In this document: one piece after another, positions 3,292 through 63,914 of the stretch
How positions within the stretch are numbered: position 1 is the stretch's first letter
Layout of the letters: each line of letters opens with the position of its first letter
DNA from: Cucumis sativus
Lineage: Eukaryota; Streptophyta; Magnoliopsida; Cucurbitales; Cucurbitaceae
DNA length: 64,000 nucleotides
Direction: 5' to 3'
Assembly (NCBI RefSeq): GCF_000004075.3
Contig: NC_026661.2
Location: 20,984,307-21,048,306 of the forward strand
Notes under the pieces: model-generated
What the model was told of the DNA's origin: nothing
Databases searched by the model: none
What the model saw: only the letters and a program-made list of their open reading frames with translations
Program-made: the position numbers and the translations under genes

Positions 3292-4391
3292 ATGGATTTC
3301 TGGCCAGAATTCCTTGCAAGCAGTTGGGGTAGAGAATTTGTTGCCGGTGGATTTGGTGGCATCGCCGGGGTAATCTCAGGCTACCCTCTTGATACTCTTA
3401 GAGTAATGCAACAACAATCGATATCTGGTTCTGCTTTGAAAATTTTTCGGAATATCATTGTTAACGATGGCCCTGCTGGTCTTTTCAGAGGCATGACTGC
3501 TCCTTTGGCCTCTGTCACTTTTCAGGTCGGTCTTATGATCTTATCCTTCTCCATGGATGTTTCTGTTCTCAAACTCCCTACAATGGCGGATTGAAATTCA
3601 AGGGCAGATACTGATTGATATTTTTGCATTTACAGAACGCCGCCGTGTTTCAGATCTATGCCGTTCTTTCTCGGGCATTCAACTCCTCCTCTCAATCCAA
3701 AATTGGAGACCCTCCAAGTTATAAGGCTGTGGCATTTGCAGGAGTTGGTACTGGAGCTCTTCAGAGCCTCATCTTGTCGCCGGTGGAGCTTGTGAAGATT
3801 CGCCTGCAATTGCAGAGTTCAAGCCATGCAATTTCTTCTTCTTCTTCTTCTTCTTCTTCTTCTTCTTCTCATAGAGGTCCATTGAGCGTCGCCAAGAGCA
3901 TCTACAAAACAGAAGGATTGAGAGGGATTTACAAAGGACTTACCATAACCATACTGAGAGATGCACCTGCACATGGCATCTATTTCTGGACATACGAGTG
4001 CATGAGAGAGCAATTTCATCCTGGCTGCCGAAAGACCAGCCAAGAGAGCGTCGGAACAATGCTGGTCGCCGGAGGGCTTGCTGGAGTTGCTAGCTGGGTT
4101 TTTTGTTATCCACTGGATGTATTGAAGACAAGAATTCAGGGTCAAACAAAAAGTTCATCTCGAAAGTACAATGGAATTGTGGATTGTCTTAGCAAAAGTG
4201 TAAGAGAAGAGGGTTATAGAGTGCTCTGGCGTGGACTAGGGACAGCAGTTGCCAGAGCATTTGTGGTAAATGGGGCCATTTTTGCTGCTTATGAGATAAC
4301 TTTGAGGTGTTTGTTTAGCAATGGAAGCAATCATACACAGCAATATGATTGCCCAAATTTGTCACAATCACAGAGTCCTAAAAAGAAATGA
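3292..4391 (+). CDS. BAC2: Mitochondrial basic amino acid (arginine/ornithine-type) carrier, BAC2-like
   Basis: Two exons, 3292-3525 and 3636-4391, joined by a phase-0 GT-AG intron, give 329 residues. The protein is a mitochondrial carrier family member with three repeats, each marked by the PxD/ExxK/R signature: PLDTLR near residue 30, PVELVK in the second repeat and PLDVLK in the third. Six inner-membrane helices are expected. The N-terminus (MDFWPEFLASSWGREF) and the GGFGG region match what I know of Arabidopsis BAC2, which exchanges arginine and other basic amino acids across the inner mitochondrial membrane and is linked to stress and proline metabolism. A run of about 12 serines encoded by a TTC/TCT microsatellite lengthens the loop after the second signature. 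The next gene is convergent. The family call is certain; substrate preference is inferred from homology. Confidence 0.93.
3833..3869 (+). repeat. Coding (TTC)n microsatellite giving a poly-serine run
   Basis: About 12 trinucleotide units in the second BAC2 exon are read as Ser codons. The run falls in the matrix-side loop of carrier repeat 2, between the PVELVK signature and the next helix, where length changes are likely to be tolerated. Confidence 0.9.
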
Positions 4392-5111
4392 ATTCCCTCA
4401 CCCTTTGATTTCTTGTTTTCATCTTCTATTTCAATTCTGGTATAAAATAATGTAGCAAAGAAGGATATGCTTCAGACTTATACAAAGTTATGCTAAAGCC
4501 TTGATTCCCCAATTTATCTAAATTCGTATCCCTAATTTTATGTGATGAAAAGTTGGGTTCTGAGAAGTTTGATAATCTATCAAGAATCAATTTATACAAA
4601 TTCAAGACCCGAAACCAAGTGGTTCCCTTGCGTTGTCTCTGAAAAAAGAAGAAACTATGCAAGAAAAACTGTGTAGATGTAATCGAAATCAGAAAGAGGA
4701 GATTAAATTACACGAGTTAGTCAAAATATGCCCCCAAAAAGAAAAGTTCTTATACCAAACGAAAGTAACTTCATGAATCACATATTTTAAAAAAATGCAA
4801 TGAAACCATCACGTCAGTGTAAAGCAAAGATCAGGGAAAGAGATAGGTAGCAATTCTGGAATTTTATATTGCATGAAAATCATTTCAATGTTGTAGAGTT
4901 TCACTGTAATGAATGAAGAATATATTCTAAATCATAGCTATGTATTCTCAACAATCCGGAAGAAGACGGTAAAAGATGTTCATCTCTAATTTGAATCTAT
5001 ACAGTAGAAGTATATTCTCAGAAACATACTAAAGAATTGTGTAAGAAGAAGATTATTTACTCTATTTAGAACAATTAGTCAGCCACTGAAGCAGACAGTT
5101 TGATCCGATTC
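4392..5111. other. Convergent 3' intergenic region
   Basis: This 720-bp stretch separates the stop codons of the BAC2 gene (+) and the PDX1.2-like gene (-). It should hold both 3' UTRs and poly(A) sites. No ORF or repeat of note is visible. Confidence 0.6.
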
Positions 5112-5978
5112 TCACGCGGGGCCAAAACCAAAAGCAGCTCGCGCCAGTGCTTCGGGATCGCTGTGATTCCTCACTGCCTCAATCATTCTTCTTAATCGGT
5201 CGCGAGGATTAGGGTATTCGAATATCTCCAATCCAAGAAAGATGCCATCACAACCTAACTGCATCATCAAAGCGGCATCCGCAGGAGTCACAATGCCTCC
5301 GGCCGCGTAATGGATTGCCGGTAGTCTGCCAAGTTCCCTGGTTTCTTTGACAAGATCATAAGGCGCAGCGATCTCTCGCGAGTAAGCGAAAACCTCATTC
5401 TCATCCATGTTATGTAAATATCTAATATCCGACATCACAGACCTCACATTACGCAACGTCTCCGTGATATGACCTGTAATAGAAGACATACCCCCTTGAG
5501 TCTTCACCATTATCGCACCTTCCTTTATTCTCCTCAACGCCTCGCCCAGGCTTCGACATCCACAGACAAAATGCGAGTCCTTAAACTTGTGTTTGTTGAT
5601 AAAATTCTCTGCATCCGCAGCCGAAGCTTCGTCGCTCTCATCGAAATGCTTCACACCAACACAATCAAGAATCTGCGCTTCGACGAAGTGCCCTATGCGG
5701 ATCTTTACGATTACCGGAATGGAAACAGCGCGCTCAATTTCCTTGAATAGCAACGGTTCAGGCATTCGTGATATACCTTCGTGAATCGGTTGGGAGAACA
5801 AAACACAACACGCCCCGGCTTCCTCTGCAATCTTTGCTTGATGTACGTCCTTAACTTCCACAATGACTCCGGTATGAACCCGAGCTAGTTCGTTCGTGGA
5901 AGAACTCGGACGCCCCGTGAATTCATAGATGGTATATCCGTTGGTGGGAAAAGGCGCGACCGAACTTTGTCCCGGCAT
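5112..5978 (-). CDS. PDX1.2: PDX1.2-like non-catalytic pyridoxal 5'-phosphate synthase subunit
   Basis: An intronless 288-residue SNZ/PdxS-type TIM-barrel protein. Conserved blocks are GHFVEAQIL, INKHKF, CGCRSLGEALRRI, APYDLV and TPADAALMMQLGCDG. True PDX1 enzymes use an Asp and two catalytic lysines; here the Asp position is Glu41, the first lysine is kept (Lys92, VKIRIGHF) and the second is Gln161 (VKTQGG), the same Gln as in Arabidopsis PDX1.2. The phosphate-binding GSG is GLE (FLGLEIF). The usual N-terminal VKVGLAQMLRGG block is missing, and the C-terminus stops about 20 residues early. The ATG at 5978 is preferred. The frame stays open to 6080 and would add a hydrophobic leader atypical of the family, but it could be real. 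PDX1.2 is known to stabilise PDX1 dodecamers under heat; the same role here is inferred. Its neighbour is KIN-13B, as in Arabidopsis. Confidence 0.85.
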   Translation of the reverse strand: MPGQSSVAPFPTNGYTIYEFTGRPSSSTNELARVHTGVIVEVKDVHQAKIAEEAGACCVLFSQPIHEGISRMPEPLLFKEIERAVSIPVIVKIRIGHFVEAQILDCVGVKHFDESDEASAADAENFINKHKFKDSHFVCGCRSLGEALRRIKEGAIMVKTQGGMSSITGHITETLRNVRSVMSDIRYLHNMDENEVFAYSREIAAPYDLVKETRELGRLPAIHYAAGGIVTPADAALMMQLGCDGIFLGLEIFEYPNPRDRLRRMIEAVRNHSDPEALARAAFGFGPA

Positions 5979-9056: not shown

Positions 9057-14462
<5,406 letters not shown>

Positions 14463-16057: not shown

Positions 16058-16687
16058 CTATAATCTCATGGACCCTATTCTTCTCTTTGAGCTGTTCACA
16101 CTCCTAGCTGAAGGCTCAGGAACAGAAATTTCAGAGTGCATGTCCATGAAAAACTTGTCCACAATTTCAAGATAAACAGGACTTCTAAGGCGAGAGTAAT
16201 AATGAATTGCTTCTTCTATATCCAATTCTTGTTCCATATCACTCCTATCCAACATCTCCAATTCTTTCATTTTTTCTACTAAACCATTACTTCTTGTACT
16301 ATTGTTTTTAACATCACCTTTTCTAAGATGGGAAGCTCCTGGTTTCTTCTTCTCTTTCACAGCTTTCTCTTGTTTGCTCCTTGGAGGGCTTTGTATTGCA
16401 ACGTTGGTGTCTTCTTGCTTCACATTTTCCTTGGATGCGATCATACTGCCTTTGTCAATGCTTCTCTTTGCAGCTTTTTGGAGTGTGGACTGCCACTCAT
16501 CATAAAAATCAATGTAGAGTCGATCTGTTGGATGGGTATGTTGTGGCTTTCCTTTGCTGCAAGATAAGGTGATCAAGGAAGTGGGTTTCTGCAGCTTTTG
16601 AAACCCTTTGAAGAATAAATTCTTGAAGTTTTCAAGAGTTTTATGGAAGAGGTTGTTGGTTTTGTGGATGGTTTTCTTTAGCAGCAT
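16058..16687 (-). CDS. Unidentified plant protein, single exon, basic and lysine-rich
   Basis: An intronless frame from ATG at 16687 gives 209 residues. The frame stays open to about 16720 but only through a non-ATG codon, so 16687 is preferred. The N-terminus is basic and amphipathic (MLLKKTIHKTNNLFHKT, then NFKNLFFKGFQKL). A middle aromatic motif, RLYIDFYDEW, is followed by a long Lys/Glu/Ser-rich, probably disordered part. The C-terminal third is acidic then ordered: DIEEAIHYYSRLRSPVYL, then VDKFFMDMH. The composition, the CT-rich probable 5' UTR (about 16769-16792) and the well-formed conserved-looking ends argue for a real gene. I cannot name the family. Its place between KIN-13B and eL37 corresponds to the slot of At3g16070 in Arabidopsis, which I recall as an unknown protein; orthology is a guess. 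Confidence 0.7.
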   Translation of the reverse strand: MLLKKTIHKTNNLFHKTLENFKNLFFKGFQKLQKPTSLITLSCSKGKPQHTHPTDRLYIDFYDEWQSTLQKAAKRSIDKGSMIASKENVKQEDTNVAIQSPPRSKQEKAVKEKKKPGASHLRKGDVKNNSTRSNGLVEKMKELEMLDRSDMEQELDIEEAIHYYSRLRSPVYLEIVDKFFMDMHSEISVPEPSARSVNSSKRRIGSMRL

Positions 16688-19361
16688 TGGGTTGTTACTG
16701 TAACGTGGTATAAAAATCAAAGGGCTTTGCTAACTCTCAGTCTGTTTGCAAGAAGAAAGAAACCTCTCTACCTCTCTCTCTCTCTCTCCTGCTTTGTTCA
16801 CTAAATATTTCTGCAACACAGAGAGAAAGAAAGAGACAATTCGTGTTTCTCGTGGTTACCTAAAGACAATGCCAGAGTAGGTGGAAATTCCAAGTCTTGC
16901 CTTTAACTTCCTCTCCTTCCTTTTGGGCCATTCTCTCTCTAAAAGTTGAAAATCTTAACCGCTTCAACTTTGATAATTTGTAGCACGGAATCCCATGAGC
17001 TTGAATGCTTCGTTTTTGACTACCTGTAGTGTAAAGAGCATGGCATTCACTAAGATGCAAAGCTAAAGATGGTGGGTGTTAAAAGTGTAATGACATTAAA
17101 TCCACTGTTTGACATGTACCTAATTGTTGTAAAGGCAATCCCCGGCCCATGAAGGACCCATTTGGCAAATGGTCCCAGCAAAAAATTAAAGAGAGATGTC
17201 CCCATGAAACAAAAGGGGAATTGGCAACATATTCATTTTTTGGTATTTCACACTGTCCTGTTTTCAATCAAGTACGTAACAGAAAGATTAATTCAAATTA
17301 GCAGAGTCAATTCACCATTGATCAAATTTTGAATGGCAGGTTTGCTGCATACTATCTTTTTTGTCCTATCAAACAATACGGCAATTAAGACAACTTTAGA
17401 ATTTAAACAGAGAAAAAGTGAGACAAGAATGATTCTGCCACAGCAAATGGCTTCCAAGTACCAATCAAGAATGAACTTTGCAAAATATCTATACCTCCTT
17501 AGAAGAATTGTACATTCAAACTGTCTTATTTCTATCTGTGATATAATATTCTAAAATAAAAAGAATCTTCAACTCGAACCAAGTAGGTATTATATCGTCG
17601 ACTAAGAACTTAAGAGTGTGTTTGGGCCAAGAAGGAATAGGAAGTTGGGAAGTATGGAGTTGCGAACTCTACTCCCTACTCCTTGTTTGACCTAAAGAGC
17701 CAAAGAGTTTGCAAGTCCCACAACTAGAAAACGTCAATAATTATGTCTTATTGACTCTTTACACTGTGGGCCCCAAAAGTTTACAACTCCCCAAAACTTC
17801 ATAACTTTACTCTTTGGTCCAAACCTCCCTTTAGAGGTTTGAATCATACTCACACAAATTGAACTAAAAAAATTCAAAAAATGAAAAACACAGTTAGTTT
17901 CAACTTGTAGGCACGGGTTGTGGAACGGGCAATTGGCCTTTCATGGAGAAACTAAAAAAGATGGCGAAATTTAGCACATATTGCAGTTACTTTTGCATAC
18001 TAAGTGGGTTTTGCTTACTCAACCTTGAAGACAATTCCAAATTCTATAATGTTCGTAATTCCAGACTCGACTTGATGGATCATAAATGAAACACATGGTT
18101 GATTGGGGAGAACTTTGTACATTAAAAAGGAAATGGAAGATTGCATTTGAATCAAGATATCTAATACATTTCATTTCATTTAGTTGATTTCTGTAAAAAC
18201 AATGGAGGCTGAGAGTTGTAACTTTGAATAACACAACACATTCTGTATTAAATTTCATTCAATGCAGTTGAGAAATCGTGGTCATAATTATGTGAGGCTA
18301 CTTTGGTCCCCAGTATGCAAAGGGATTGGTACTACCAAGGCACTCAACTGATGATAGGATAAGGTGCATCACTAATATCTTCAGAGCCAAGTCATTTTCT
18401 AAGTAAAAGCAACTGAATCCAACCTCCTAAACCAATCTAATTCCTGACTGTAAACTACTTTCTTTCAGACGCAGGGAAACGAAATTACAAATCAACTTTT
18501 TGACTTGAATTTATTAACTTTGACTACTTATGACCACACTGAGGCACAAACTTATATGGCCACACGCAGAGGCCCTATTTAAACGACCCCTATTAAGTTG
18601 GAAACCTGGGATTTTCTTTAAAGTGAAACCATCAATCACCATTTAAAAAAAATTAAGGATTGGATAACAACAGTCCATGATTATTGGTTGGTTACCTTGG
18701 AAAAGAATTGATAATCACGGAGCTTTTGAATAGCCAAACTGTTCCTTGATATGACAACAAGATTTGTCAAATGCTCTGCATGTGAAGACTTGATAATCTA
18801 TTTGGTAAAAGAAAACAAATCAGGCAGGTAGTCATTCAAACTGAAGCTGTGGCAAAGCATGCAAGTGGTGGTAGTATGGCATCAGTGAAATGCAAAAGAA
18901 CAAAGCTAGATCTTATTGTTCAATACTTACCCAGCTAGGCTCCCCAAAATAAAGTGTAGAGATCAATATGCTATACATCTTGGTTCTTAGTTGTTAAAAG
19001 CTTACACATTGTTGAAACATCTCAAAACTGTTACAAGAACTGATGGAAGAAAGCCACCACCAATATAATCTGTTGGGAAGAAATATAAATAGGGGCTAGA
19101 AGTGCATCATTTGTCCTAGAAGAAAGGTAACAATATATACATGTATAAGTTGGCTTGTTTCACAGATCCCACAATTCAATCGCAAATCTAAGTTACAGCT
19201 CATTTGACCTTTCCTACTGGGACCAACTGCCATAATCGAAATTATTGCTCAAAGTAAAACAATGGTGAAGAAAGGGTCTGTGTTGTGCCTTTCTCAAGTA
19301 AGTAGGGTATATGAATCTGCCTTCAATGACGACAAAATCAACGTAAATTTGTACTGTGGAT
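16688..19361. other. Intergenic region upstream of the unidentified minus-strand gene
   Basis: The start is probably the promoter and 5' UTR of the minus-strand gene, with a CT microsatellite at about 16769-16792. A candidate Tourist-like MITE lies at 17614-17830. The right half should include the 3' UTR of the DDX11-like gene. No other coding region is convincing. Confidence 0.5.
17614..17830. mobile_element. Candidate Tourist/PIF-Harbinger-like MITE
   Basis: About 217 bp with imperfect terminal inverted repeats: GAGTGTGTTTGGGCCAAG at the left and CTTTGGTCCAAACCTCCCT at the right. It is flanked by TAA (17611-17613) and TTA (17831-17833), resembling a 3-bp target duplication that is not exact. 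There is no coding capacity. Termini with GTTTGG and CCAAAC are typical of the Tourist group. Confidence 0.5.
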
Positions 19362-22300
19362 TCACCGTCCCATCTTTCTGTTAACTTTAAAAAACTGATT
19401 CAACCTTCGATGGACTTCACCATAATTCTCAGTTGAAGCAATGAGACAGTCCTTAATCCACTTCGGAAGCTTGTCAGCTGGGTGTGAAAAGCTTCTCTTT
19501 GAAGAATTAGATGTATACCGAACATCAACCAGTAAAATTGCTGCATAATCATTGATATGTCGAATCGCTCTACCTGTAAAAAAGGCAAGGAAGGCAGGCA
19601 TTAGATAAAGATAAGATGAAAGTGCAATGGTTTGGATGTAGAGAACACTACATTATCACTACAGTTCTAAAAGATCTAGGGCAAACTACCAATTGGTTGG
19701 CCAGGATTACTCATTCCAAGCCTGATCAAGATCTCATCTAGGCAAGATTCTTTTATTGCTGTAATTAACTAAGTGGTCAATTATAATAAAGCATAACCAA
19801 TAAACAACCAGATTTGGAGAGAAGTAAAAATACTAGCAGATTGCAACCAAACAATCAAGTCAGCCATTCTCTGATTGAGCTGAAAGTAATAGGCAATGAG
19901 CAAATCCAAACTACACGACTCGATTCAATTCGATAGTTCATTTAGGAGGATAACTATGTCTCCCATAATGAGAAAATGGAAACCATTACTTACCAATAGA
20001 TTGATTCACGGCTTTCATGCAAAGATTCTCATAATACTCTTTTCCTCTTTTGCAACTTCTCAAGATCTCTAAACCAGTTTCAACATCTCCACTAGGAACA
20101 TCATTATAAAACTTTGAACTCTTAATAGAATTCGAATTCCCCAGATTTTCAATATGCTTCACCCTCTCCATTAACTCAATGTCAGATGGACTAGGGTAGG
20201 GTAGGCCAACCATGACAATACACCTACCCATCCCATCGCTTAAGTTGATGCCTTCCGATATTTTTCCCCCAACAACAGCAAATAGCACCGCACCACTAGT
20301 AGACAAAATATTTTGTTTTGGATCCTTCTTAGACAATGCGTCGATGTTTTCCTTGTATTCCTTAAGAACAGATTCCACATCAGTATTTTTTCTAGGCTCT
20401 CTGAATATACGTTTTTTCTTCATAATCCTGTCAAGGATGCCTGAAGTTTTCCATAAACCATATACTTGTTCTTCATAATCAAATGAAGAGAAGAACACAA
20501 CAATTCCTTCTGGAACCACAGTTACTATATTACAAAGCAAAAGCCCTAGCTCCTTTACCTGTAAATTCAGGGCCATAAAGCAATCAGCTACTGTAAAACT
20601 AACAAGGAAACAAGCTGAGAAACTGAACAGTAAGAAAAAAAGTTAACTACTTTATATCTGAACTATCTGGAATAAAACAACAGGAATAATACAAAAACAT
20701 GAAAAATACAAGGTAAAAAGTGAAAAGAAAATGGGTATAAATCAACTCAAGCCTGTAATATCCTTACAATAGCAGATGAGCTTCTGCGGTTGTAGCTAAA
20801 ATCAAAAAGCTGACCAGAAGGACCAGAGGAAACAGCCATAGGCAAAATACTTTCCGGAGGAACAATGTGACTACATGAAAAAAAATTCAACTGAGAAGGG
20901 GGTAACCATGGAAAGAGTCGCTCTCTTGTTTCTTCAATAGGCTGTAAAGTTCCCCCAGCAAGAACAACAGCATGTGCTTGATCTACAACCTACAAGATTA
21001 ACTTAAGTCTCAGAATAAGGTATAATACACAAAATTCATGATGTAAATTTCTATTTTTTGCGAACCTCAGAAAATATCTTGTCGCCCCTAAGCTTAACAA
21101 ATTTTATACATCCTCCACGTTCCCCTAAGCCTGTTGGTCTGTTCTTAGAGATGATCATTTTTCCATCTCCATCAAAGTTAATAAGGGATAGCAGCATGTC
21201 AGCTAATGCCCTAAAGCTTGAGAGAGTACTTTCCTTCTCGTAACATTCTCCAGACGGTTTTATTCCCAAGTCATTTCTTGGTTTAATAGTTCTTTCTCCA
21301 TACCCACTAACCTGGAAAATTTACATCTTAACCTAATATAAGAAGAATCATTCAACATATGTGGATATAATTAGCAAATAAGAAGGATATACCTTGTGCA
21401 TGATGTTGCTTTCCTTAATATACTGTAGCAGTTTTACAAAGTTGATATTATCTATGTTGAGAGAGAAGAGAAAATCATTTATAGCCATTGAATAGTCCAA
21501 AGCACCATTTTTTCCAGTACTATCATTTTGGCAAGGTTCCACATAAGACGCTTCCTCAATGTGCAAGAGTTTAAGGAGAGCCCGAGTAACTATAATTAGA
21601 GTTTGAATATATCTCCGATTCCCTGGTCCCAAAAGACTGCAAAATCTTTCAAAATACCTCTCCATGTGGTGATGCACATTCTCCAGCTGTAGGTAAGTTG
21701 GGAAATTTGATATCAATAGGAAACAAAGTACTTAGAAACAGTTCTATAAAAATTAGACAGGGTAGCCCACTGGGTGCTGATTGTAGGACTTATAAATGGA
21801 CAACACGCAATCGATTCTATACGAAGATTAAAAATTCAAAAACACTTAACTGGATAAATAACCCAGTACCATGGTTCTATTTCTTATCAAAGTTCAAAGA
21901 TTGTATTGTGTTAGAATTAGTGGGCTTGGCCCAAGGAAAGATTTAACCTAATTTTCTTTCCTTTTTTTATCATAAGCTTGTTGTCTATTTATTTTCCCTT
22001 TCTATTCTTTGATTATATGAAATAATAATAAGAAAAGTTAGATTGTGATTTTTCTCCTGGTTCTCGAGTTTCCACATAACTCAGTGTCTATTTTCTTTTA
22101 CCGCTTTTAACATATTGAATAACTGAATTCAATAAAGTTGGTAGCCATACCTGCGAATAACTGACCTTTGAATCATGCATACTTATGAGTGAATCGGCTA
22201 AATTGTGTGCCTCATCAATAATTACAATACTGTTCTTCAAAACAAGGCCAAGAGATTCACGGGATGATTTTGATAGAAGAGATTGGTAAGGTAGGACGAT

Positions 22301-24923
22301 AAGATCAGCACCCTGGACCAAACTTCGGGAGCCATAATATGGACACGTTCCCACCTTTCTTCCAAGGTGAATAAGATCTTCAATGTCTAAGGCTTCTCTT
22401 TGAGAGATCTGACTCCTAAAATTCTTCTGTAGTTTTGGGTTTCGAAGCATTGGGCACCCAGAAGAAGCCTTGGTTCGGGACATTTTTCCTGCACCAGCTA
22501 ACTTCTGTAAATGGATGCAACCATAAGTTCATAGCAAACTGAGAAATCTTCAAATCCAATGATAGAAAGTACTGTTAACATTATTCTTTAACAATGGGAG
22601 AGAGATGCATGCGTCTGTGCAATATTGTGGCAAGCAATTATATAAAAATTCTGTCTCCTTAGAACTCAAGAACACAAACGTCAACCTAGAGCATATTCTG
22701 TTCAAGTAAGGTCATGCAATTCTATAAAACTTAGAGAAGACAAATTTACAATAGATAAAATGATGAATGAGTAAGGATGAACCCAATGCAACTATTTAAC
22801 AAACAAGGTGCCAGATGAAAAGTCTGAATTTCATACCACCTAAAAGTACCCTGTTTCGGAAGATCGATGAAAAATAAATAAATTTCATAATTTCCCATCA
22901 GTTTGATTTTCCTTCATAATTTTAGTTTCTTTTTATAAAAAAAATGTGTGTGACAAACTATAGTTAATTTAGTCAAATATGTGCATACTATTTACAATGT
23001 GGACAAAATTCTACTGCTAGTAGCAGGATGGTAAATGTTAGAATAATGAGCAAAACTAGGGTCCAACTTAAATGCTTCTTCAAAGAAAAAACCTCTTAAT
23101 TGCCAAATACACGCAGACACTTATTCTCAGAAAATAAGTGAGAATGAGAAGTCTGGAAACAGGCACTGTTTTTTAAGGTTTCGACTATTCTTTAGAATTA
23201 TAACTTGGCAAATGTAGAGTCTTCATAATTTCAATTTTGACAAGTAGTTTTTAAACTTTCATTGTGATATACAAGGGCATACAAGAAAGGAGACCAACCT
23301 TTAAATAGGACTTCCCATCCAAGAATAACCCCTAACTAATAATTACAATAGGTCTACGAGGCTTCCCCCCAAAATACCAATGAACATTTTGAGTTATAGA
23401 TAACAAGTTCCAATCTACCGCTGACGCTAGACTATCGCATACCTTGGCTTTGGATGTCTCAGTAGTCTTTTTCTTCTGAAGCTCCAAGCATTGTTCATTT
23501 ATGTGACTTGCACTACCAAGTTTGAGTACCTCTGAAACATGCATCAGTAGTGTAAGCAATACAGACACACACACAAACACATTAGACAAAAACCAGGAGA
23601 TATATGTACCTTCATTGATACAAAAAATCTTCCTAGAACCCAGGCAAATGACATTCAACTCACTTGCAAAGACAGTCTTCCTTAACTCCCTTATAAATTG
23701 TGATAGTTGTGAGTGTGTTCGACTACAAAAGTAAACTTTCAACTTCTCTTTATTAGATTCCTCTTGTTCTTCTTCGTCGTCGCTAGATGAACTGTTTGAA
23801 ACTCCACTGACCTTCCTCTTTGACTTCCCACTACTAAGAGCCACTTCATCGTCGCTTTCATAATCCTCCACCAAAAACTCTTGATCATCCATCTCCAGAC
23901 TATCATTTGGAGTATGCATATTCTTTTTTTCCCTTGTAACAAAATGGTCTTCCTCCTCTTGTGAAAATGAGTTCTGATGATTATCCTTGGAACCTTCTTT
24001 CTTATGTCTTCCTAATCCCATTCCAAATTCTTTAATCTTATTCTTCTTCTCCTGATTGCGATGGTCTTGACTTACAACAAACTTCCTCATCCAATCAGGC
24101 TCGTCGTCTGAATTAAACTGGATTTCATTTGGGCTGGTCTTGTCAGGCCCATCTTGTATCTCACCATTCTGTTTCTTCCTTTGGTCAGCTAACCATTGCA
24201 AAGTGCCACATATGATGCTTAGAGTTTTTCCCGTACCTACAGCAACAGAATAAACTTCAATCAAGAAATAGAAAAAAATATTTCTTTTCCTACAGAGGAA
24301 AAAGTTAAATAATTTTTTTCTTAAACTGAATTCTCACTAGCAAATACCCTCGAGTTTTACAAACACTGCAAATTGCTCAAATGCAACTACTTTTATCCAG
24401 AATCTTCGTCTCAAGAAAACGCCGCATTTCCTCCATCCACTCAAATTTATGATCAAACAACAGTATAAATTTATCCAACAATAAAGCAAAAAACATAAAT
24501 CGACTCCTATACTTCAGGCTCAAGCATTGTTCTGATTAGTATAGAAATAAATTCACCCAGACTCGAAATGGGACCCTATATTTCAACAATCGTAACGATC
24601 CAAATATCACGAAACCACAACTGAGCATCATAACCCAGTAATAATAGGTCACAGGTAATGAAAAGGGAATCTCGTAACGTATGAAACACGAGCGACAAAT
24701 GCTGTTCGAAGAACTAAGAAATACTTAATACTTAATCAGACCAAAAGCTACCGATGGAACTAAGAAATAGAAAGAAGAAGACGTAACCAGTGGGGCTTTC
24801 AAGCATGGAGATTCCGCCTTTGTTGAGATATTCGTACAGTGCCTTCATGAAATCGAACTGAATCGAGTATGGCTTGTATGGAAATGCCGGAAATTCGGGT
24901 TCCCATTGGTGTATTCTCTCCAT
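19362..24923 (-). CDS. DDX11: DDX11/ChlR1-like iron-sulfur DNA helicase
   Basis: Nine exons in transcription order: 24923-24788, 24236-23610, 23531-23443, 22504-22151, 21686-21393, 21311-21066, 20989-20768, 20558-19994, 19573-19362. All junctions are GT-AG and phase-consistent, giving 914 residues. This is an XPD-family superfamily 2 helicase: Walker A GTGKT at 46-50, DEAH at 381-384, motif V ISEGINLSDGMGR and motif VI QSIGRAIR near the end. Four cysteines fit the FeS cluster: C251, C269, C301 (SGCPML) and C338 (TCPYYGSR). The acidic insert of exon 2 (SSSSDDEEEQEES) before VYFCSRTHSQL is typical of ChlR1 rather than XPD, RTEL1 or FANCJ. In yeast and animals the family acts in sister chromatid cohesion and replication; the plant role is inferred. 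The eL37 gene is divergent from it with about 760 bp between starts. Confidence 0.93.
21909..22078 (+). mobile_element. LTR-like fossil fragment in a DDX11 intron
   Basis: It begins TGTTAGAATTAGTGGGCTTGG and runs through T-rich sequence to about CCACATAAC. The opening 22 or so bases match the inverted fragment at 12250 in KIN-13B intron 8, so both belong to one family. The TGTTAG start suggests a Copia-like LTR. No internal region or clear target duplication is visible; it looks like a solo or truncated LTR of considerable age. Confidence 0.4.
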
Positions 24924-25672: not shown

Positions 25673-25686
25673 TTCGTCCTGCATCA

Positions 25687-26694
<1,008 letters not shown>

Positions 26695-33700: not shown

Positions 33701-34439
33701 ACACACAGACACATATAGATATAAGCATCACGCACCAATGAAATTCTCTTAGAAAACTCCACAAACTATTTTCCATTAAAAACTGACTCATTGTGAAAGT
33801 GGTTTTCTTCATTGAAAAACAACCGATTCATTATATAAATTCAAGAACAAACTATGCAAGTGCAAAATAATGAACCGTTATTTCAACGATAGTGCACAAA
33901 AGGAGCAGTAAACCAAACAACGAACGGGGATTCAAATTATCCAGTGGAACGAGTGGGATTTCGTAATAATCATAGAATTACCAGTAGCCTCTCATTTTCT
34001 CTACGCAAAACAACATAGTTAATGCTGCTTTGAAACCATAACTCAATGAAAGCAAGTAACCATAATAATGTTAATGAACTAGAATTGTATCCGCAAGTGA
34101 AGTAGTGTTCTTCTGAGGCCTAAACATGTGGTTATGGCCATAAATGGTTAAAGGGGCTTGTGAGATTCAAGTTCCTACAGGTAATCCAACAACAATTCTT
34201 TTACAAAAGAAAAAGTAGAAGTCATGCGCATCGAATTGAATTGTACAGCATGCAAGCTAAAACAGATATCCCAAGATGGAGTAACTTCAATCAGATCATA
34301 ACAAAATTAAGCAAAAGAGAATCCATTTCTTACATGACATCATATACGATAAACCCACAATGCATATCACCAGAAAAAGAACCCGTTTCTTTGCTTCCTC
34401 GAGGAGGTCCCGAGGCGTAACCTGATTCTGCGAGCTCAT
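27757..34439 (-). CDS. PXA / PX / sorting-nexin-C domain protein (SNX13/14/19/25-like, plant type)
   Basis: About 16 exons in transcription order: 34439-34334, 33316-32923, 32840-32663, 32545-32406, 32319-31104, 30986-30883, 30766-30622, 30287-30219, 30125-30080, 29997-29807, about 29783-29562, 29019-28940, 28825-28690, 28334-28163, 28073-27991, 27894-27757; about 1,140 residues. Two N-terminal hydrophobic segments (VLFLVICIVGLSYMM; LPAAAFLIILI) suggest an ER or endosomal membrane hairpin. A PXA domain follows (DLWYSRLTPDKEGPEELI), then a Ser/Asp-rich linker in the 1.2-kb exon, a PX domain (SIKRRFSHFEELHRRL; LPPKHFL) for phosphoinositide binding, and a C-terminal nexin domain (WVPPNLTVPIFNLVD; RKAFWVAKQVLQLGMGDA). 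It resembles At1g15240, which I recall lying next to an eL37 gene as here. The junction between 29807 and 29783 is unresolved: the frames do not join by a normal intron. The acceptor at 28074 is weak. Confidence 0.88.
28480..28547. mobile_element. Small foldback element in a PX-gene intron
   Basis: A 68-bp palindrome: GAAACTATTTACATAATTTAG at the left is nearly complementary to the right arm TATATTTTGTAAATAGTTTC. It shares its ATTTACAAWATA core with the element at 48833-48932. It lies in the intron between the exons ending at 28690 and starting at 28334. Confidence 0.5.
29628..29729 (-). repeat. 51-bp coding tandem repeat in the PX protein linker
   Basis: Two adjacent 51-bp copies (29628-29678 and 29679-29729) encode two 17-residue units with the shared core NSGxTENQKEN. 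The copies are similar but not identical. The repeat lies between the PX and nexin-C domains. Confidence 0.8.
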
Positions 34440-38218: not shown

Positions 38219-40733
38219 ATGGCTTCTCGCAGGCGCATACTTTTGAAAGTCATTATCCTTGGCGACAGTGGGTGAGCTTTCAATTTTTATTATTCTTTTT
38301 TCTTTTGTTGCATTTTGATTATGGGCTCTGTATTTCGATTGGGTTTCTTCAATTTGAGAGAATCGAAGAGAGTATGGTGTGGGAATTTGGAAACTCATAA
38401 AGCCTGTCCTGTACCGCCTTTTTTTTTACCCTGTTGTTCCTTTATTGGATGTGATGGGGGTTCTTTTTTCTTTTTCCTAATTAAGTTTCTTCAATTTTTG
38501 GCAGCGTGGGGAAGACATCGCTAATGAATCAGTATGCTTTTGAACCCAAAGCTTTGAATTTTTGGTTTGGAAGACTTTTTATTTTTCGAGTTGTTTAATT
38601 TCCTGTTGGCGCTGCTACTTTTATTTGAATGACCAGGTATGTGAATCGTAAGTTTAGCAATCAGTATAAGGCGACTATTGGAGCAGATTTTCTCACAAAG
38701 GAAGTTCAGCTCGATGACAGGTTATTTACGTTACAAGTAAGTATGGCTATAGTTGTTGTACTGTTTTCTTCTGTTGGGTATCTTTGGTGGTATGTGGATT
38801 GGGGAATGTGTTTTAGTTAATGGGCTCTGATGGTTACCGTGGTTACCAAGCGTTAACAATTCATGCTAGGATTGGTCATTCATTGGCGATCTCTTGAAAT
38901 TCTAGTTTCTGCAATTGTGACGTTAAATCATAATATTTGAAATGAAAAGCAATGCAAAAAAAAAAAAAAAAAAATGGCAGCTGTTGATTGCTCCCTTACT
39001 CTGATAATATTTATCTTTGTCATTCCTCTCTGACTTGGTTAAATTTGAGATTGAAGTGTCACCCCTCCTTCCCTTGGTTGGAGTTTGGTTTAGTTTTATA
39101 TAAATATAGTCCTGTGTTTTATTTGTTTATTTTTCGTTGAGAAGGTGGTGTGGTTTTGCCTCGTAATGTTAATGTATTGAGATGGTCGATTTACATGTGT
39201 AGTGTCAAATTGCAGATTTGGGACACAGCTGGGCAAGAACGGTTCCAAAGTCTTGGAGTGGCCTTTTACCGTGGTGCTGATTGCTGTGTTCTTGTTTATG
39301 ATGTGAATGTTATGAAATCATTTGATAATCTTAACAACTGGCGAGAAGAGTTTCTAATTCAGGTTGGTGTTGATTCAGTGTAGATACTACATAGATAAAA
39401 GCCTATGGGATGTGTTTGTGCGTAATGACCTCTTGTCTTTTAATGATTAGGCTAGTCCATCTGATCCTGAAAACTTCCCTTTTGTCGTATTGGGGAACAA
39501 GGTCGACGTTGATGGTGGGAACAGTAGAGTGGTGAGTTTTGTCCAGTCTTGCTTTTATCATGGTTATCTGAATTACTAGGCCAGAGTGAGGATTTTTCTT
39601 TTCTGCTTTGGGGTAGATAATTTTCTAAGAAGGATTTGTTTGGTATTGTAGGTTTCTGAGAAGAAAGCTAAGGCGTGGTGTGCTTCAAAAGGAAACATAC
39701 CATACTTTGAGACGTCTGCAAAAGAAGGACTCAATGTCGATGCTGCATTTCAGTGTATAGCTAAAAATGCCCTTAAGAATGAACCAGAAGAAGAAGTGTT
39801 AGTATATTACGCTCCATTGAAATTCAACTGCAACTTCATTCCCCTCGTGATGAAATGTTTTTATTGGTTACATATGCAGCTAAATTTTATCTTTAGAAAT
39901 ATTATTGAAGTAGGTTGGTAGATAACATGAATACTAGAGCATCTTAGCAAAATAAGTTAAGGAATAAAACCAAAAGGGGGAAACTGCTGTCGTCATTTTA
40001 GGGTTACATTACGTTCTTCTATATCTGCTGAAAACTTACTCCAACAGTGCTCGGGAATATCCCTTCAGATTTTCTTGTTAGGATTCAAGTTGTCAATTTG
40101 TTTAAAATATTTATTTCAAAGCATACTTGAGGGATCTCTCACGATGAAAACTGCCAGTTTTGTTATGGATATAATGAGTAGAGTTGTCCTGTGTGTAGCC
40201 ATGTGCAACGCCCCAGGAAAAATCCCGATCCGAATCTTGGGCTTGGGGCATGGGTTACACCATGTCCCTGATCCAACTTAATTTTCCAAAGATTCTTCAC
40301 ATTCTCGATGAAGCAAGGACGGTAGCTGTATCCCTCGAAACCTTTAGAATAACACAATAGACATTGGAATGCCTGACACTCTGCATCGTTCTAATTTTTA
40401 CTGGAAGTTGCTGAAGATTTGAGTGACCGACAACTGATAAATGACTCCTCAAATGAATACAGTGCTAGCACATCATGATGATACACTATCTATTTAGAAT
40501 TTTCTGATCTTCATCTAACATAGTTGTTGTATTGTTCAACCTCTACAATATAGGGTTCTTGGTAGAGTTAACATCTGTTTCCTTGTAGAAGAGTTAAGAG
40601 TGAGTTGGAGTTTGTATTCCTTGCTTGTCACTAATTAGTGTTTTTTACTTTTTGGGGCAATGGCAGATACCTTCCCGACACGATTGACGTTGCAGGTGGA
40701 CGGCAGCAAAGATCAACAGGGTGTGAATGCTAA
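38219..40733 (+). CDS. RABG3: Rab7-type small GTPase (RABG3 subclass)
   Basis: Seven exons: 38219-38271, 38505-38531, 38637-38736, 39216-39362, 39451-39531, 39652-39797, 40667-40733, giving 206 residues as usual for Rab7. G-motifs: P-loop GDSGVGKT at 15-22, switch I region KATIGADF, switch II WDTAGQE at 62-68, NKVD at 125-128, TSAK at 157-160. The C-terminus STGCEC carries the CxC double-geranylgeranylation signal. Plant RABG3 proteins control late endosome/prevacuole to vacuole fusion and vacuole membrane traffic. Exon 2 is only 27 nt and encodes the second half of the P-loop. A TTC/TCA microsatellite lies in the presumed 5' UTR. The subclass member cannot be fixed by eye, but synteny points to RABG3c/d. 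Confidence 0.96.
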
Positions 40734-42709: not shown

Positions 42710-44296
42710 ATGCTTTCTACAAAATCTGAGTCTGATGTTACCAGTTTGGCGCCATCATCGCCTTCAAGGTCACCAAAGCGTCCAACGTACTATGTTCAGA
42801 GCCCTTCGAGATGTTCTAACGATGGGGATAAATCTTCCTCAATGCATACCACTCCAATCTATAACAACAGCCCAATTGAGTCGCCTTCACACCCGTCGTT
42901 TGGCCGGCATTCGAGGAACTCATCAGCGAGCCGATTTTCGGGCATTTTCCGGTCATCTTCTGGCAGAAAAGGAAGCAAGAAGCAGATTAGTAATGAAAAA
43001 GGGTGGCCTGAGTGTAATGTAATCATGGAAGAAGGACCTTATGATGACCTTGAAGACAAAGCTCTGTCTAGACGTTTTCAAGTTCTAATTGCTCTCCTGA
43101 GTTTCATTGCTTTGTTCACACTTTTCTGCCTCATCATTTGGGGAGCCAGTAGGCCTTTCAAGGCTCAGATTTCTGTCAAGGTAATTAAGTTACTAATTAC
43201 TGTGATATGATTTGTATTCCTTACACTCTTCTACTTCTAGATGATATCAACATGAGTTTAACAAACGATGTGATTACCTATGTTTTCTCGAGAAGAAAGA
43301 AATGACATGGTAGAAATTTTAACATAAAGATTCTATGTTCGAAGGAAAATAAAGAAACTAACTGCTTAAATCACTATGTTTAATCATCTATATCTATTCA
43401 TAAAAACTCTTGTAGCTGAATCGAAATTCAAATCTATGAAGCTAGATCATTTGGTTTGCGTCTCTCTTCTTGACCATGTCAAATTTCCAGCCATTCATGA
43501 ACAGAGACTTTCATTTTTTTTTATTAATGCAAAATCTGATTTCTTTCAGAGCTTGGCTGTGCACAATTTTTATGTTGGAGAAGGTTCAGATTCCACTGGG
43601 GTTCCTACCAAGTTGCTGACATTGAATAGCACGTTGAGATTAAGTGTATACAATCCTGCTACAATATTTGGCATTCATGTCACCTCCACACCAATTGATC
43701 TCATTTATTCAGAGATTGTTGTGGCCTCTGGTCAGGTAATAAACTATACCGAGCTTCTGTTTTGTTACTCATAACTTTGGAACTGATTGGTTCGGAAAAG
43801 AGCTTGGATTGGAGTCCAGCTTGCCTTAGGCAATGAAATTATGAATTTAAAACGAAGTCCGGTTTAGAATGAATTTCTAAGTACTTCAAAAAAGAGTCAA
43901 GTACTTCATTCCAAACGGACCCAATATCATCTTAAATAGGAATTTGTTACTGTTTCATCCTCGATCGCTAAGGACATAACTTTCATGCCTTGTGAATTGT
44001 GATTATCCTATGTGCAGTTGAAGAAATATTACCAGCCAAGAAACAGTCACCGGAGAGTATCTGTCAACTTGGAGGGAATAAAGGTTCCTATGTATGGAGC
44101 TGCATCAACTTTGACCGTTCCCCCAACAAGTAGCCCGGTTCCAATGACATTGGCGTTCAAAATCCGGTCACGAGGATACGTGGTAGGGCAGCTAGTAAAA
44201 ACAACACATATAAAGCAAATCTCTTGCCCTGTGGGTATTGATTCTACCAGCAACAAAGCCATCGTGTTCAAGAAGAATTCGTGCACTTACGAGTGA
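42710..44296 (+). CDS. LEA-2/NHL-like (LEA hydroxyproline-rich glycoprotein type) membrane protein
   Basis: Three exons, 42710-43180, 43550-43735 and 44018-44296, all phase 0, give 311 residues. The N-terminal 115 residues are Ser/Pro-rich and cytosolic in look (YYVQSPSR, SSSMHTTPIY, SPSHPSFGRHSR), with many potential phosphorylation sites. One transmembrane helix follows (VLIALLSFIALFTLFCLII). The C-terminal part matches the LEA-2 fold: NFYVGEGSD, TLRLSVYNPATIFGIHVTS, FKIRSRGYVVG, then ISCPVGID. The family includes NDR1/HIN1-like proteins. I recall the closest Arabidopsis relatives as At1g45688 and At5g42860, which interact with cellulose synthase machinery; that link is from memory. It is the only annotated gene here without an obvious partner in the conserved Arabidopsis series. 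Its second intron carries a small foldback element. Confidence 0.88.
43857..43920. mobile_element. 64-bp foldback MITE in a LEA-2 gene intron
   Basis: The ends GTCCGGTTTAGAATGAA and TTCATTCCAAACGGAC are near-perfect reverse complements, and internal AAGTACTTC motifs extend the hairpin. It resembles the very common plant GTCCGTTTGGAAT hairpin repeats. It lies in the intron between 43735 and 44018. Confidence 0.55.
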
Positions 44297-45799: not shown

Positions 45800-46273
45800 A
45801 TGTTGGAAGGTAAAGCTTTGGTACAGGATACAGATATGCCTGGCAAGATGCAGATCCAAGCCATGGACGCTGCTTCTAAAGCTTTGGATCTCTATGATGT
45901 TTTTGACTGCAAATCCATTGCTGCCCACATAAAAAAGGTCCTCTCTCTTTCTCCCTCCCCCTCGTTTGATGTGTATGTAGGAGGAAATGGTGGGTTGCAG
46001 ATGTTTTTTCTTGACTTTAACAGCAGAACCGTGTTGGTTTTGTGTATGTGTAGAAGACAAGAGGTCGGTAAGAGAATCTCAGGCTTTGATCCTTAAACTT
46101 GTTTGGTTGTTGATTTGCAGGACTTCGACAACAAATATGGAAGCGGATGGCAATGTGTGGTTGGTTCAAATTTTGGTTGTTTCTTCACCCACTCCAAGGG
46201 GTCTTTCATCTACTTCAAACTGGAAACCCTCAACTTTCTCATCTTCAAAGGGGTGACTTCTTCGGGCCCATGA
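45800..46273 (+). CDS. Dynein light chain LC8-type protein (plant)
   Basis: Two exons, 45800-45937 and 46121-46273, joined in phase 0, give 96 residues. The LC8/DYNLL fold is clear: a helical half with MQIQAMDAASKALDLY and IAAHIKKDFDNKYGSGWQ, and the beta half with CVVGSNFGCFFTHSKGSFIYF. Animal LC8 is 89 residues; this one has a short extra C-terminal tail (GVTSSGP). Angiosperms lack dynein heavy chains, so plant LC8 proteins are thought to be dimerisation hubs or nucleoporin and myosin partners rather than motor subunits. The ATG at 45800 is the first ATG in frame. It is convergent with the HPPR cluster. Confidence 0.93.
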
Positions 46274-49288: not shown

Positions 49289-49358
49289 ATTCGTCGTTGT
49301 CATATTTTACGAACATTGAAAAAATTCGTCGTTGTCATATTTTATGAACAATGAATAT
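49289..49358 (+). repeat. 35-bp direct tandem duplication
   Basis: Two adjacent copies of a unit starting ATTCGTCGTTGTCATATTTT, with a few differences, lie between the HPPR copies. It is non-coding. Confidence 0.75.
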
Positions 49359-52279: not shown

Positions 52280-52324
<45 letters not shown>

Positions 52325-55683: not shown

Positions 55684-55720
<37 letters not shown>

Positions 55721-59367: not shown

Positions 59368-59404
<37 letters not shown>

Positions 59405-59935: not shown

Positions 59936-62770
59936 ATGGTTCGTGCTATGGAGCAAGAGCACGAAGGTTTCAGGTCCAGATTCTTTCTTTTCAGAGGAAA
60001 TCATGAGAATACAGGCAGACATGCCAAGAGCTTGAGTGTGGAGAGTGCCAATGTATTTGACTCTGTCAATGAAGATGATTTGTCGACGTCGAGAAGCCAG
60101 GGATCGACACCGGTTCACAACTCTTCTGAGAAACACCAAGCTGGGCCACCACTGGCACCATCCAATCGATCTGAAAGGGCTTCAAAGCCAAAGTTGAGCA
60201 GCAAAGACAACGATCTTGCCGCTGAAAAAGAAGCCAGGGAGAAGATGGCCTTAGGTTCGTCTTTCTTTTTAGTCCTTAAAGACTTTCAAAACAAAAATTC
60301 TGATCCTTGTAACCGTTTTCTAATCTAATATCTACTTAACCAAGACTTACCTTAATCAACTTCAGCACATGCCACGTTTTCACACATTCTTGTTAATGTT
60401 AAAGACAAATATAGTTATTGTTTCAAGCCTTGGGACAACTTGGGACAAAAATAGACATTTTAGAGGTTGAAGGGCTAAAACAGAGCAAAAATAAAGTTTG
60501 AGGACCAAAAAGGACTAAGATAGTTGAAGGTTAGGTATCAAAATGAGGTCATTAGTTATTCTAGGTGGAAAGCTTTTTATTTGATTCTGCAATTAATTTC
60601 CTCTTCCAATTGGGTTATAATTCAGAAATGGAACAGATGAAAGAGAGATTTGCAAAGTTACTCTTGGGGGAAGACATGTCTGGGGGAGGGAAGGGAGTTT
60701 CCTCAGCCTTGGCATTGTCTAATGCAATCACAAACCTTGCTGGTACGTCCCTAAAATTTCTCACATTGTAGCCTCAGGAAATTTCTCCCTCAGTTTTCGG
60801 CTTCAAAATCATGCTGAACCAGTACAGAATTTTTTGTTAGATATGAATTGTCTTCCAATTTTACAGCTTCTGTTTTTGGAGAACAATGGCGTCTTGAGCC
60901 AATGTCAGTAGAAAGAAAAGCAAGATGGAGAAAAGAAATCGATTTGCTCTTATCCGTTACAGATTATATTGTAGAGTTCGTACCTTCACAACAAAAATCC
61001 AAGGATGGAACGAATATGGAGGTAACAATCCAATTTCAACTCTGTAATCAAAATCCATTGATATGAGTCTCACAAGCTTAGATTAGGAGAATATTACTCC
61101 TTCCAATTCATTAATACCCCGACCTTAAGCCTAATGATCCTACCTTTCTTTTTCTATCTTACAAGTAAGGTTTATTATTGTTATAGATCATGGTGACACG
61201 GCAACGAAATGATTTGCACTTGAATATCCCAGCTTTGAGGAAGCTTGATGCCATGTTAATTGTAAGAACTATGGCTTAAATTTACTTTATTTTTTCTTGT
61301 TTTTTTTCTGCTTCAGTCCAACGAATCCTATGTGATATTGGGGGTCTGCCATGACAAAATGCAGGATTGTCTGGATAATTTTAAAGACCAAAATGAGTTC
61401 TACTACGTATCAAGAGATGCCAATGACTCGGAGAAAGGAAATAACAAAAGGAACGATAAATGGTGGCTACCTACGGCCAAAGTTCCTCCAAATGGTTTGT
61501 CAGACATGTCAAGGAAGTTTCTGCAGTACCAGAAGGATTGTGTCAACCAAGTTCTCAAAGCAGCCATGGCTATAAATGCTCAAATCATATCAGAAATGGA
61601 GATCCCTGAAGACTACATTGAGTCTCTCCCTAAAGTAGGCAAAGTCAATTATGTTTGTAACAATTTCAAAATGAATCTTCAATCAAAATTAAGTTTTGTT
61701 TGTGGTTTTACAGAATGGAAGGGCAAGCCTAGGGGATTCCATCTACAAAAGTATAACAGTTGAGTTCTTTGATCCGGATCAGTTTCTCTCCAGCATGGAC
61801 CTAACATCAGAGCATAAAATCCTAGATCTCAAAGACAGAATCGAAGCCTCCATAGTGATTTGGAGAAGGAAGATGAACCAGAAAGATGGAAAATCTACTT
61901 GGGGTTCAGCAGTGAGTATGGAAAAGAGGGAACTATTTGAAGAAAGAGCAGAAACCATCTTGCTAATACTTAAGCACCGCTTCCCTGGAATTCCACAATC
62001 TTCACTAGACATCAGCAAAATTCAGTTCAACCGGGTAAAAGAACGCTCCTTCCTTGTCTATAATCTCATCTAAAATTATCAACAATCCAAACACAAATTC
62101 TAGAAACTAAAATCAAAGCTTCTCAACTTTAGGCTACATAAACAGATGCTTATTATAATTCTGCCCAACAACATCTTCTAAATGAGATGATAAATGTTTT
62201 TAGCCCATGTAATCCAATAGGAAATTAACAATCCTATGCCCATTTCTTTGACAGTGTGAGATCATAAAACACTGTCTAAAACAACACGTCCAAACATATT
62301 GTAAATACCTAGTTTCATAGTGTGATGAACCACCACAAACAAACTTACTCTTGGGTGAACTGCAGGACGTGGGGCACGCCGTTTTAGAAAGCTACTCCAG
62401 AATACTGGAAAGCTTAGCCTTCACAGTGATGTCACGAATTGAAGACGTACTCCACGCCGATGGGTTAACTCAGAACCCATCACAAATAGCAACAAGGAGG
62501 AAGCCGACGAGCGAACCCCCAATGGAAAAATTAGAAGAGTTGAACAACGGCCCAGAAACGCCGGCTTCAATGACGCTGTTGGATTTCATGGGGTGGGGAC
62601 AGGATCAAAACGAGACGGAGATGAAGAAGGAATCGTTTGGGAATTCAGATGATTTAAACTTGGATTCAGATCTGAAACAAGGGAATAAGGCAGGGAATAT
62701 AGTGACGAACAAGAAGGTTTCGTACCTGGAGAATTTGAGCGCTGTTAGAAGTCCAACGGCGCGCCATTGA
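59936..62770 (+). CDS. ROPGEF12: PRONE-domain RopGEF (ROPGEF12-like)
   Basis: Seven exons: 59936-60254, 60626-60742, 60867-61021, 61187-61261, 61365-61634, 61714-62034, 62366-62770, giving 553 residues. The PRONE domain spans about 107-455: [129 protein letters not shown]. RopGEFs load GTP onto plant Rho (ROP) GTPases downstream of receptor kinases. The variable N-terminus (1-106) is Ser-rich, and the C-terminal tail ends RSPTARH, which I recall as typical of pollen-type RopGEFs with an autoinhibitory tail. The 12-like assignment rests on position between HPPR2 and plastid S17, as in At1g79860. All introns are GT-AG. Confidence 0.94.
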
Positions 62771-63419
62771 AAAAGAAGAATAGATAGAGAGATGATTTGG
62801 ATGAAAAATTCCATCATTTTCAGTTATATACATTCCTTTTGTGTAAATAGGAAGAAGAAGAAGAAGAAGAATGAGATCAACCCTTTTTCTTTTCTTCTCT
62901 TAATTTGAATTTTGGAATCACAACTCTTTGTGTTTGTGTAAATCCAAAATTGTTATTATGTATCATTTGTATCAATCAATGTAGTCATTTTAGATTTATA
63001 TATTCAAAAATATCAAATTCCATTCCCAAACTATTATCTCACATCTAATCATAATTAAATAAAACACACTATGTTTAGATCATGATACACGATCGCGCAG
63101 TTTTTTTAAAGATAAAAAAATTATTTCAAATCCAAACAATTGTATTTACTAATAGTTCTTTTAAAAGTAAATGTGAAAATTATGAAAATAGTAAATGTGC
63201 ACAAACCTTTTGATTTATTTGGGTTAGATTTATGAAAATTAACCAAAATTTAACGTAATAATAAATAGTTAAAGATTTAGTAGGAAACGACATGTCGTTT
63301 TAAATAGCATCGTATATTGGTTACCATGTGTCATTCACACACGATTCACCCTCCTCCCGTTCATCTCTTCTTATCTTCGTCTTCTTCAATTCGGATAACA
63401 CAAAAATCCCTAAAACAAA
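62771..63419. other. Spacer between RopGEF and plastid S17 genes
   Basis: The RopGEF 3' UTR with a (GAA)n tract at about 62851-62870, then AT-rich sequence and the short promoter and 5' UTR of the S17 gene. I see no other gene. Confidence 0.55.
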
Positions 63420-63914
63420 ATGTCTATAACTCTAACTTCCTCATCCCTTCTTCAAATTCCTCCAGTACAGAGCTTGAAGAAGCTCTCAATTTCCTCCTCT
63501 TTCCTCCATGGCTCAACTCCTCTCTCATTCCTCTCTAAGCCCTCTTCCTCATCGTCGCCATTCCCCTCCCAAACCCCCAATTTCCTCCCCTCCATTAGGG
63601 CCATGAGGTCCCTCCAAGGCCGCGTGGTTTGTGCCACCAACGACAAAACCGTCGCCGTTGAGGTAGTCCGATTAGCGCCTCATCCGAAATACAAGCGCCG
63701 GATTAGAATCAAGAAGAAGTACCAGGCACACGATCCGGATAACCAGTTCCAGGTTGGAGATTTTGTGGAGCTTGAAAAATGCCGTCCGATTAGTAAGATG
63801 AAGACGTTCCTGGCTATTCCGGTTCCAGCGAGGAATTCGAAGAAGAAAGCGGTGGAAGGTGGTGAGGGAGGAGAGCTTGGAATTCCATTGGAGTCTCAGC
63901 AAGAACAGGTTTGA
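63420..63914 (+). CDS. RPS17: Plastid 30S ribosomal protein uS17c
   Basis: A single exon of 164 residues. The first 60 or so residues are Ser-rich with few acidic residues (SITLTSSSLLQIPP, SSSSSPFPSQ), a typical chloroplast transit peptide. The mature part begins near MRSLQGRVVCATNDKTVAV and contains the bacterial-type S17 OB fold: EVVRLAPHPKYKRRIRI, YQAHDPDNQFQVGD, VELEKCRPISKMKTFL. A short Gly/Glu-rich tail (EGGEGGELG) follows. It binds 16S rRNA in the plastid small subunit. In Arabidopsis the nuclear gene is At1g79850, next to ROPGEF12, as here. Confidence 0.96.
   Translation: MSITLTSSSLLQIPPVQSLKKLSISSSFLHGSTPLSFLSKPSSSSSPFPSQTPNFLPSIRAMRSLQGRVVCATNDKTVAVEVVRLAPHPKYKRRIRIKKKYQAHDPDNQFQVGDFVELEKCRPISKMKTFLAIPVPARNSKKKAVEGGEGGELGIPLESQQEQV

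Follow-up and report, generated by a model that had tools for sequence, protein, structure and literature searches.

A stretch of 64,000 nucleotides of the cucumber (Cucumis sativus) genome, C7:20984307-21048306, hereafter called the window, carries a run of genes from a BAC2-like mitochondrial carrier to ribosomal protein S17 (RPS17). An earlier note on this DNA had proposed that these genes correspond, in order, to two interleaved series of Arabidopsis loci, as expected if one ancestral block had been split by gene loss after duplication, and that cucumber keeps the unfractionated order. The first part of that proposal is borne out by a second copy of the block, on C3 of the same genome, and by an order that continues past the window. 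The second part is refuted: the C3 copy is thinned and inverted, and PsaH and a PDI-like gene are missing from the window. With a probability that we put at about 0.93, this genome holds an old eudicot block in two homeologous copies, one of them the window, produced by an ancient whole-genome duplication that was most likely the cucurbit-common tetraploidization. Neither copy is a preserved ancestral original; the pair is an ordinary relic of an ancient genome doubling.

The homeologous segment lies at about 21.93-22.37 Mb of C3 and is inverted relative to C7. We read 43 kb of it gene by gene (C3:21955467-21998652), using tblastn for the comparison with the window; places elsewhere on C3 come from genome-wide family matches. 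Six anchors (the GL2-type, RopGEF, eL37, BAC2, DUF632 and coatomer genes) occur on C3 in exactly the inverted order (6/6), a result given by 2 of the 720 possible orders. The two RopGEF proteins share 72.5% amino acid identity, and the two genomic loci found for eL37 are the window gene and the C3 gene. Coatomer genes of this family were found at five genomic loci: three have long unbroken frames, and the other two, of which C7 and C3 carry one each on these segments, are divided into exons. RopGEF, PDF2_C (GL2-type) and DUF632 matches are all found no farther than 65 kb from the C3 eL37 gene, for which uniform and independent placing gives a chance of ~3e-7 at a radius chosen after seeing the data. 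When ten window-side families were searched genome-wide, a partner on the C3 segment was found for five: RopGEF, eL37, DUF632, PDF2_C and coatomer.

Gene absence is reciprocal in the stretches read. Three genes, BAC2, eL37 and RopGEF, are shared by the window and the C3 stretch. Nine window genes (PDX1, kinesin-13, an open reading frame (ORF) of no family, a DEAD_2 helicase, PXA/PX, Rab7, LEA-2, dynein light chain and hydroxyphenylpyruvate reductase (HPPR)) gave no hit with tblastn at a threshold of 1e-4 across C3:21955467-21998652. Matches between 1e-4 and 1 were short and weak, the best being that of Rab7 (E 0.006-0.010, 31% identity over 42 residues within the RopGEF gene); the last exon of eL37 itself came in at E 0.005 in the same comparison. 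In the other direction, PsaH, the PDI-like gene and a gene of no known family were found on C3 only; a search of 314 kb of C7 gave no match below E 0.6 for any of them, and PsaH has a single locus genome-wide, on C3. These three genes, kept on C3 only, therefore mark the window itself as a fractionated copy. C3 gene-finder models h6-h10 and h12 (scores 6.1-20.5), taken as repeats or spurious, were dropped before these counts were made.

Two of the genes kept only on C3, PsaH and the PDI-like gene, appear to belong to the same block. The RopGEF family includes At1g79860, At3g16130 and At1g52240, the PDI-like family At3g16110 and At1g52260, and PsaH is at At3g16140 and At1g52230. The first thioredoxin domain of the PDI-like protein encoded on C3 contains CARS, a motif that one paper's table gives for At1g52260 and At3g16110 only. 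The C3 trio of PDI-like, RopGEF and PsaH genes has the numbers At3g16110, At3g16130 and At3g16140 or, in the other series, At1g52260, At1g52240 and At1g52230. Because these numbers neighbor each other in both At3g16 and At1g52, the trio was most likely part of the ancestral block and was partly lost from the window copy; the numbers of the lost PsaH and PDI-like gene fall inside or beside the Arabidopsis intervals named in the earlier note. Around the BAC2-to-RopGEF interval, 12 of 15 scored genes are kept on C7 and 6 of 15 on C3. We give even odds to a scenario of strongly one-sided gene loss, with C3 the more depleted copy, plus a later inversion of ~30 kb on C7 that took in the genes between HSP70 and DUF632, next to the window on its left.

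Divergence between the two copies fits an old event. Corrected transversion divergence at four-fold degenerate sites (4DTv), pooled over 290 such sites in BAC2, RopGEF and eL37, is 0.585 between C7 and C3. We turned to 4DTv in place of synonymous divergence (Ks), for which YN00 gave errors for BAC2 and RopGEF and NG86 returned undefined values or 1.9. These three genes are unable to date the event because their synonymous sites are near saturation. Besides the eudicot gamma triplication, two papers describe a cucurbit-common tetraploidization, which a review places shortly after gamma, with 115-130 million years ago stated at that point. A gamma origin of the C7/C3 pair would accommodate the high divergence (4DTv as above; NG86 Ks undefined for BAC2 and 1.0-1.9 for RopGEF), and clock values for the two events may overlap since one is placed so shortly after the other. 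We nevertheless consider gamma an unlikely source: Arabidopsis At3g16 and At1g52 mix genes that are C7-only and C3-only in cucumber, so that several parallel retentions would be needed, and eL37 has two loci rather than three, as does the exon-split form of the coatomer gene (2 of the 5 family loci, one on each segment). Because At3g16 and At1g52 hold genes now divided between C7 and C3, a single later split in the cucurbits takes the fewest steps, and the cucurbit-common tetraploidization is probably the source of the pair.

The gamma alternative bears on the dating only. The proposal that a single unfractionated ancestral order survives here, and that only Arabidopsis was duplicated and thinned, would explain why both Arabidopsis series are represented in the window in a single order, and one paper reports that cucumber and its close relatives have not undergone a recent whole-genome duplication. 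The partly emptied second copy on C3, and the PsaH and PDI-like genes kept there, make it very improbable.

Arabidopsis loci were compared through gene names printed in papers plus assumed numbers. As printed, At1g79900 is BAC2, At1g79890 is given as CHL1, At1g79870 is HPPR2, At1g79850 is RPS17, At3g16080 is RPL37C, At3g16060 is KIN13B, and RABG3c and RABG3d are At3g16100 and At1g52280, respectively. At3g15980, At1g52360, At1g79990, At3g16180 and At1g52190 are likewise printed with the expected gene names, and At3g16120 is listed with no gene name attached. The locus numbers of the earlier note are in this way matched by the expected gene name for 8 of the 10 distinct At1g79 and At3g16 loci; At3g16120 stands as a bare locus and At3g16050 as an assumed number. 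Each of the two five-locus series is monotone inside the window, which 2 of 120 permutations would give in each case. The two are not disjoint, as At1g79860, At3g16130 and At1g52240 suit the RopGEF slot equally, a point that the earlier note had not drawn on, and At1g15240, LEA-2 and the unnamed ORF lie outside both.

This order continues past the window as expected, with GL2-type and NPF/PTR2 genes on the right, while the left side has IST1 and coatomer genes. We compiled extended Arabidopsis lists ourselves, with five assumed numbers in each; discordant pairs amounted to 0/55 for At3g16 (11 loci), 0/36 for At1g52 (9 loci) and 3/55 for At1g79 (11 loci). The lectin-kinase array, the PPR, trihelix-like, LEA-2, bHLH-like and Aux/IAA-like genes, the unnamed ORF and everything left of NUP50 were left out as unnumbered. 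The claim that neither series is broken is accurate within the window, but At1g79 is broken once just outside it, where HSP70, an RTEL1-like gene and OVATE (window coordinates about -58765 to -28724) run opposite to the Arabidopsis order that we assume for them. With these three reversed, and with the adjoining DUF632 gene facing the other way from the C3 copies, a local inversion on C7, some 30 kb long and spanning HSP70 to DUF632, is probable. That the whole pattern is chance, with common families fitted to an Arabidopsis interval, is scarcely credible: ortholog choices are mostly assumed and large families (Rab, carriers, kinesins) match easily, but the two monotone series, the order continuing outside the window, the PDX1.2 best match and an independent C3 copy in the same genome all argue against it. 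Among the papers searched, none combined all the elements of interleaved collinear series with grape, and none named at least two loci from a set of six for RPL37, dynein and At1g15240.

Several points weigh against two homeologous copies of one block. Most of the Arabidopsis orthologies consist of family membership plus assumed locus order, and the NG86 values come from synonymous sites near saturation. The count of reciprocal losses covers 43 kb of C3, and RPS17 was left out of it, as C3:21937297-21955466 lies outside the stretch read. The DUF632 and coatomer genes are placed on C3 by family matches alone. Orientation is concordant for 5 of the 6 anchors; DUF632 is turned round, which fits the same local inversion as that suggested by the At1g79 order. 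Finally, for 5 of the 10 families in the genome-wide search, namely IST1, dynein light chain, NUP50, PXA and kinesin-13, the C3 segment yielded no partner. Kinesin-13, for example, has no match near C3:21.9-22.4 Mb, its close copies being at C1:13.65 Mb and C6:15.25 Mb and the rest weaker kinesins. We read these five cases as losses.

Two homeologous copies point to the following history, which we regard as very probable. When an ancient whole-genome duplication, in all likelihood the cucurbit-common tetraploidization, took place, it doubled an old eudicot gene block; the C7 copy (the window) and the inverted C3 copy then each lost different genes, the survivors keeping their order. Arabidopsis would hold other descendants of the block, and the At1g79, At3g16, At1g52 and At1g15 series would interleave on the window because the Arabidopsis copies were thinned by that lineage's own duplications.

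Gene models came from a simple gene finder that takes splicing into account; its training set was the window with 200 kb of left and 50 kb of right flank, and small window genes were subsequently joined by hand. Families were called at Pfam curated cut-offs, and nearest structures were taken from PDB chains. These assignments reach family level, and the exact paralogue for PDX1 only, by comparison of PDB paralogues. The interval given for the gene run in the earlier note, 3292..63914, is correct at both ends: it opens with the start codon of BAC2 and closes with the last base of the RPS17 stop codon. So, at family level, are its gene content and order, with all 13 gene slots present in the stated sequence (the three tandem HPPR genes count as one slot) and 11 of the 13 above the curated cut-off of the Pfam family that names them (Table 1). 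The unnamed ORF had no match in the Pfam search, and Rfam and tRNA scans across the window gave no match.

Table 1. Genes of the window, in window coordinates, and of the homeologous segment, in C3 coordinates.
Gene	Position	Strand	Evidence or remark
Mitochondrial basic amino acid carrier, BAC2-like	3292..4391 (exons 3292-3525 and 3636-4391)	+	PF00153, E 2.5e-50
PDX1.2-type SOR/SNZ protein	5112..5978	-	PF01680, E 1.5e-65; best PDB matches are chains named PDX1.2
Kinesin-13-like motor	9057..14462	+	PF00225, E 4.9e-101
Single-exon ORF, no family	16058..16687	-	Gene-finder score 39.1
DEAD_2 helicase	18681..24923	-	PF06733, E 4.9e-10
Ribosomal protein eL37	25687..26694	+	PF01907, E 2e-27
PXA/PX/Nexin_C protein	27757..34439	-	PF02194, PF00787, PF08628; model in three predicted pieces
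Rab7 (RABG3-type) GTPase	38219..40733	+	PF00071, E 3.6e-55; best PDB matches Rab7
LEA-2-like membrane protein	42710..44296	+	PF03168, E 2.7e-5, 25.0 bits, slightly below the 25.4 cut-off
Dynein light chain	45800..46273	+	PF01221, E 3.2e-33
Three tandem HPPR genes	46892-48237, 49941-51778, 54657-57428	-	PF02826 on first copy
RopGEF (PRONE)	59936..62770	+	PF03759, E 2.5e-35
Plastid-type RPS17	63414..63914	+	PF00366
GL2-type gene	C3:21933780-21937296		Family match
PsaH	C3:21956019-21957155		In the C3 stretch read
RopGEF	C3:21957566-21960302		Family match 21957890-21959602; ~12 kb from C3 eL37
PDI-like gene	C3:21962442-21966400		Thioredoxin domains
Gene of no known family	C3:21968113-21968553		In the C3 stretch read
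eL37	C3:21971890-21972340		One of two genomic loci found
BAC2 homologue	C3:21994409-21995471		71.5% amino acid identity to window copy
Two DUF632 genes	C3:22022389-22025197, 22033951-22036463		Family matches
Coatomer gene	C3:22370422-22371919		Family match; split into exons like the C7 gene

The PDX1 protein of the window scores 320 bits against the PDX1.2 chain, 297 against PDX1.3 and 289 against PDX1.1; we take these PDB chains to be the Arabidopsis paralogues, and At3g16050 to be PDX1.2. In the PDB alignment it shares a Gln with PDX1.2 at one site and has a Lys where PDX1.2 has an Arg; the site of the Gln is presumably that of the catalytic Lys in active PDX1 proteins. The DEAD_2 helicase at 18681-24923 is, we assume, CHL1/DDX11-like. 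The S17 protein has as its top two PDB matches 4v61, 'Ribosomal Protein S17', and 5mmj, 'plastid ribosomal protein uS17c', the former being, we presume, a chloroplast ribosome. Within the BAC2 coding sequence of the window, a perfect TTC repeat of 12.3 copies (3833-3869) gives a serine run, and the C3 copy is without it.

The tandem HPPR array (46892-57428) is itself old, with pairwise corrected 4DTv of 0.45-0.91 and amino acid identities of 66-77%. Its second copy is 76.7% identical to the first, and the third is nearest to a PDB entry named hydroxyphenylpyruvate reductase, which we take to be the Coleus enzyme. Published values for Coleus HPPR are 76% identity to At1g79870 and 45-48% to two other Arabidopsis copies.

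To the right of the window lie a GL2-type HD-ZIP IV gene (PF25797, START), which we take to correspond to At1g79840, and an NPF/PTR2 gene (PF00854); farther right, bHLH-like and Aux/IAA-like genes match neither Arabidopsis series. The left flank contains IST1, DUF630/632, HSP70, OVATE, a second DEAD_2 helicase (the RTEL1-like gene mentioned above, a name that we assume), a sulphate transporter, NUP50, an MFP1-like protein and the coatomer gene (WD40, PF04053; its designation as beta' is our own). The MFP1-like, lectin-kinase, PPR, bHLH and Aux/IAA names come from inspection by eye and not from a family search. A tandem array at window coordinates -20703 to -4640, made up of genes for lectin-type receptor kinases and pieces of them, splits the block between IST1 and BAC2. 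On C3, the ~22 kb between eL37 and BAC2 (C3:21972341-21994408) contain no recognizable window gene, only low-scoring ORFs, and one of these (h8) weakly resembles the lectin-kinase region left of the window (E 0.009). Family matches on the small contigs C48, C57, C59 and C62 score the same as places on C3, C4 and C1; some unplaced contigs may be redundant copies, and family counts may be inflated.

The C7/C3 pair illustrates on a small scale how genes are lost once an old duplication has occurred. An apparently complete ancestral order can be one thinned copy of two, and this stays hidden until the remainder of the genome is searched as well. If gene loss was indeed one-sided, the pair could also serve as a compact example of fractionation that was biased after the cucurbit tetraploidization. 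The pattern is of a known kind, an ordinary case involving no new mechanism. It resembles the homeologous blocks of the cucurbit-common tetraploidization (CCT, CucWGD1), which are likewise two collinear, fractionated segments in one genome with old synonymous divergence. The fractionated alpha/beta duplicate segments of Arabidopsis, which come from Brassicales duplications, are alike in having the same families at At1g79, At3g16, At1g52 and At1g15 numbers in window order, but they derive from duplications separate from the one behind C7 and C3. From conserved eudicot microsynteny, finally, the block does not differ in kind: the same order is kept for some 200 kb, interspersed with tandem arrays and further genes.

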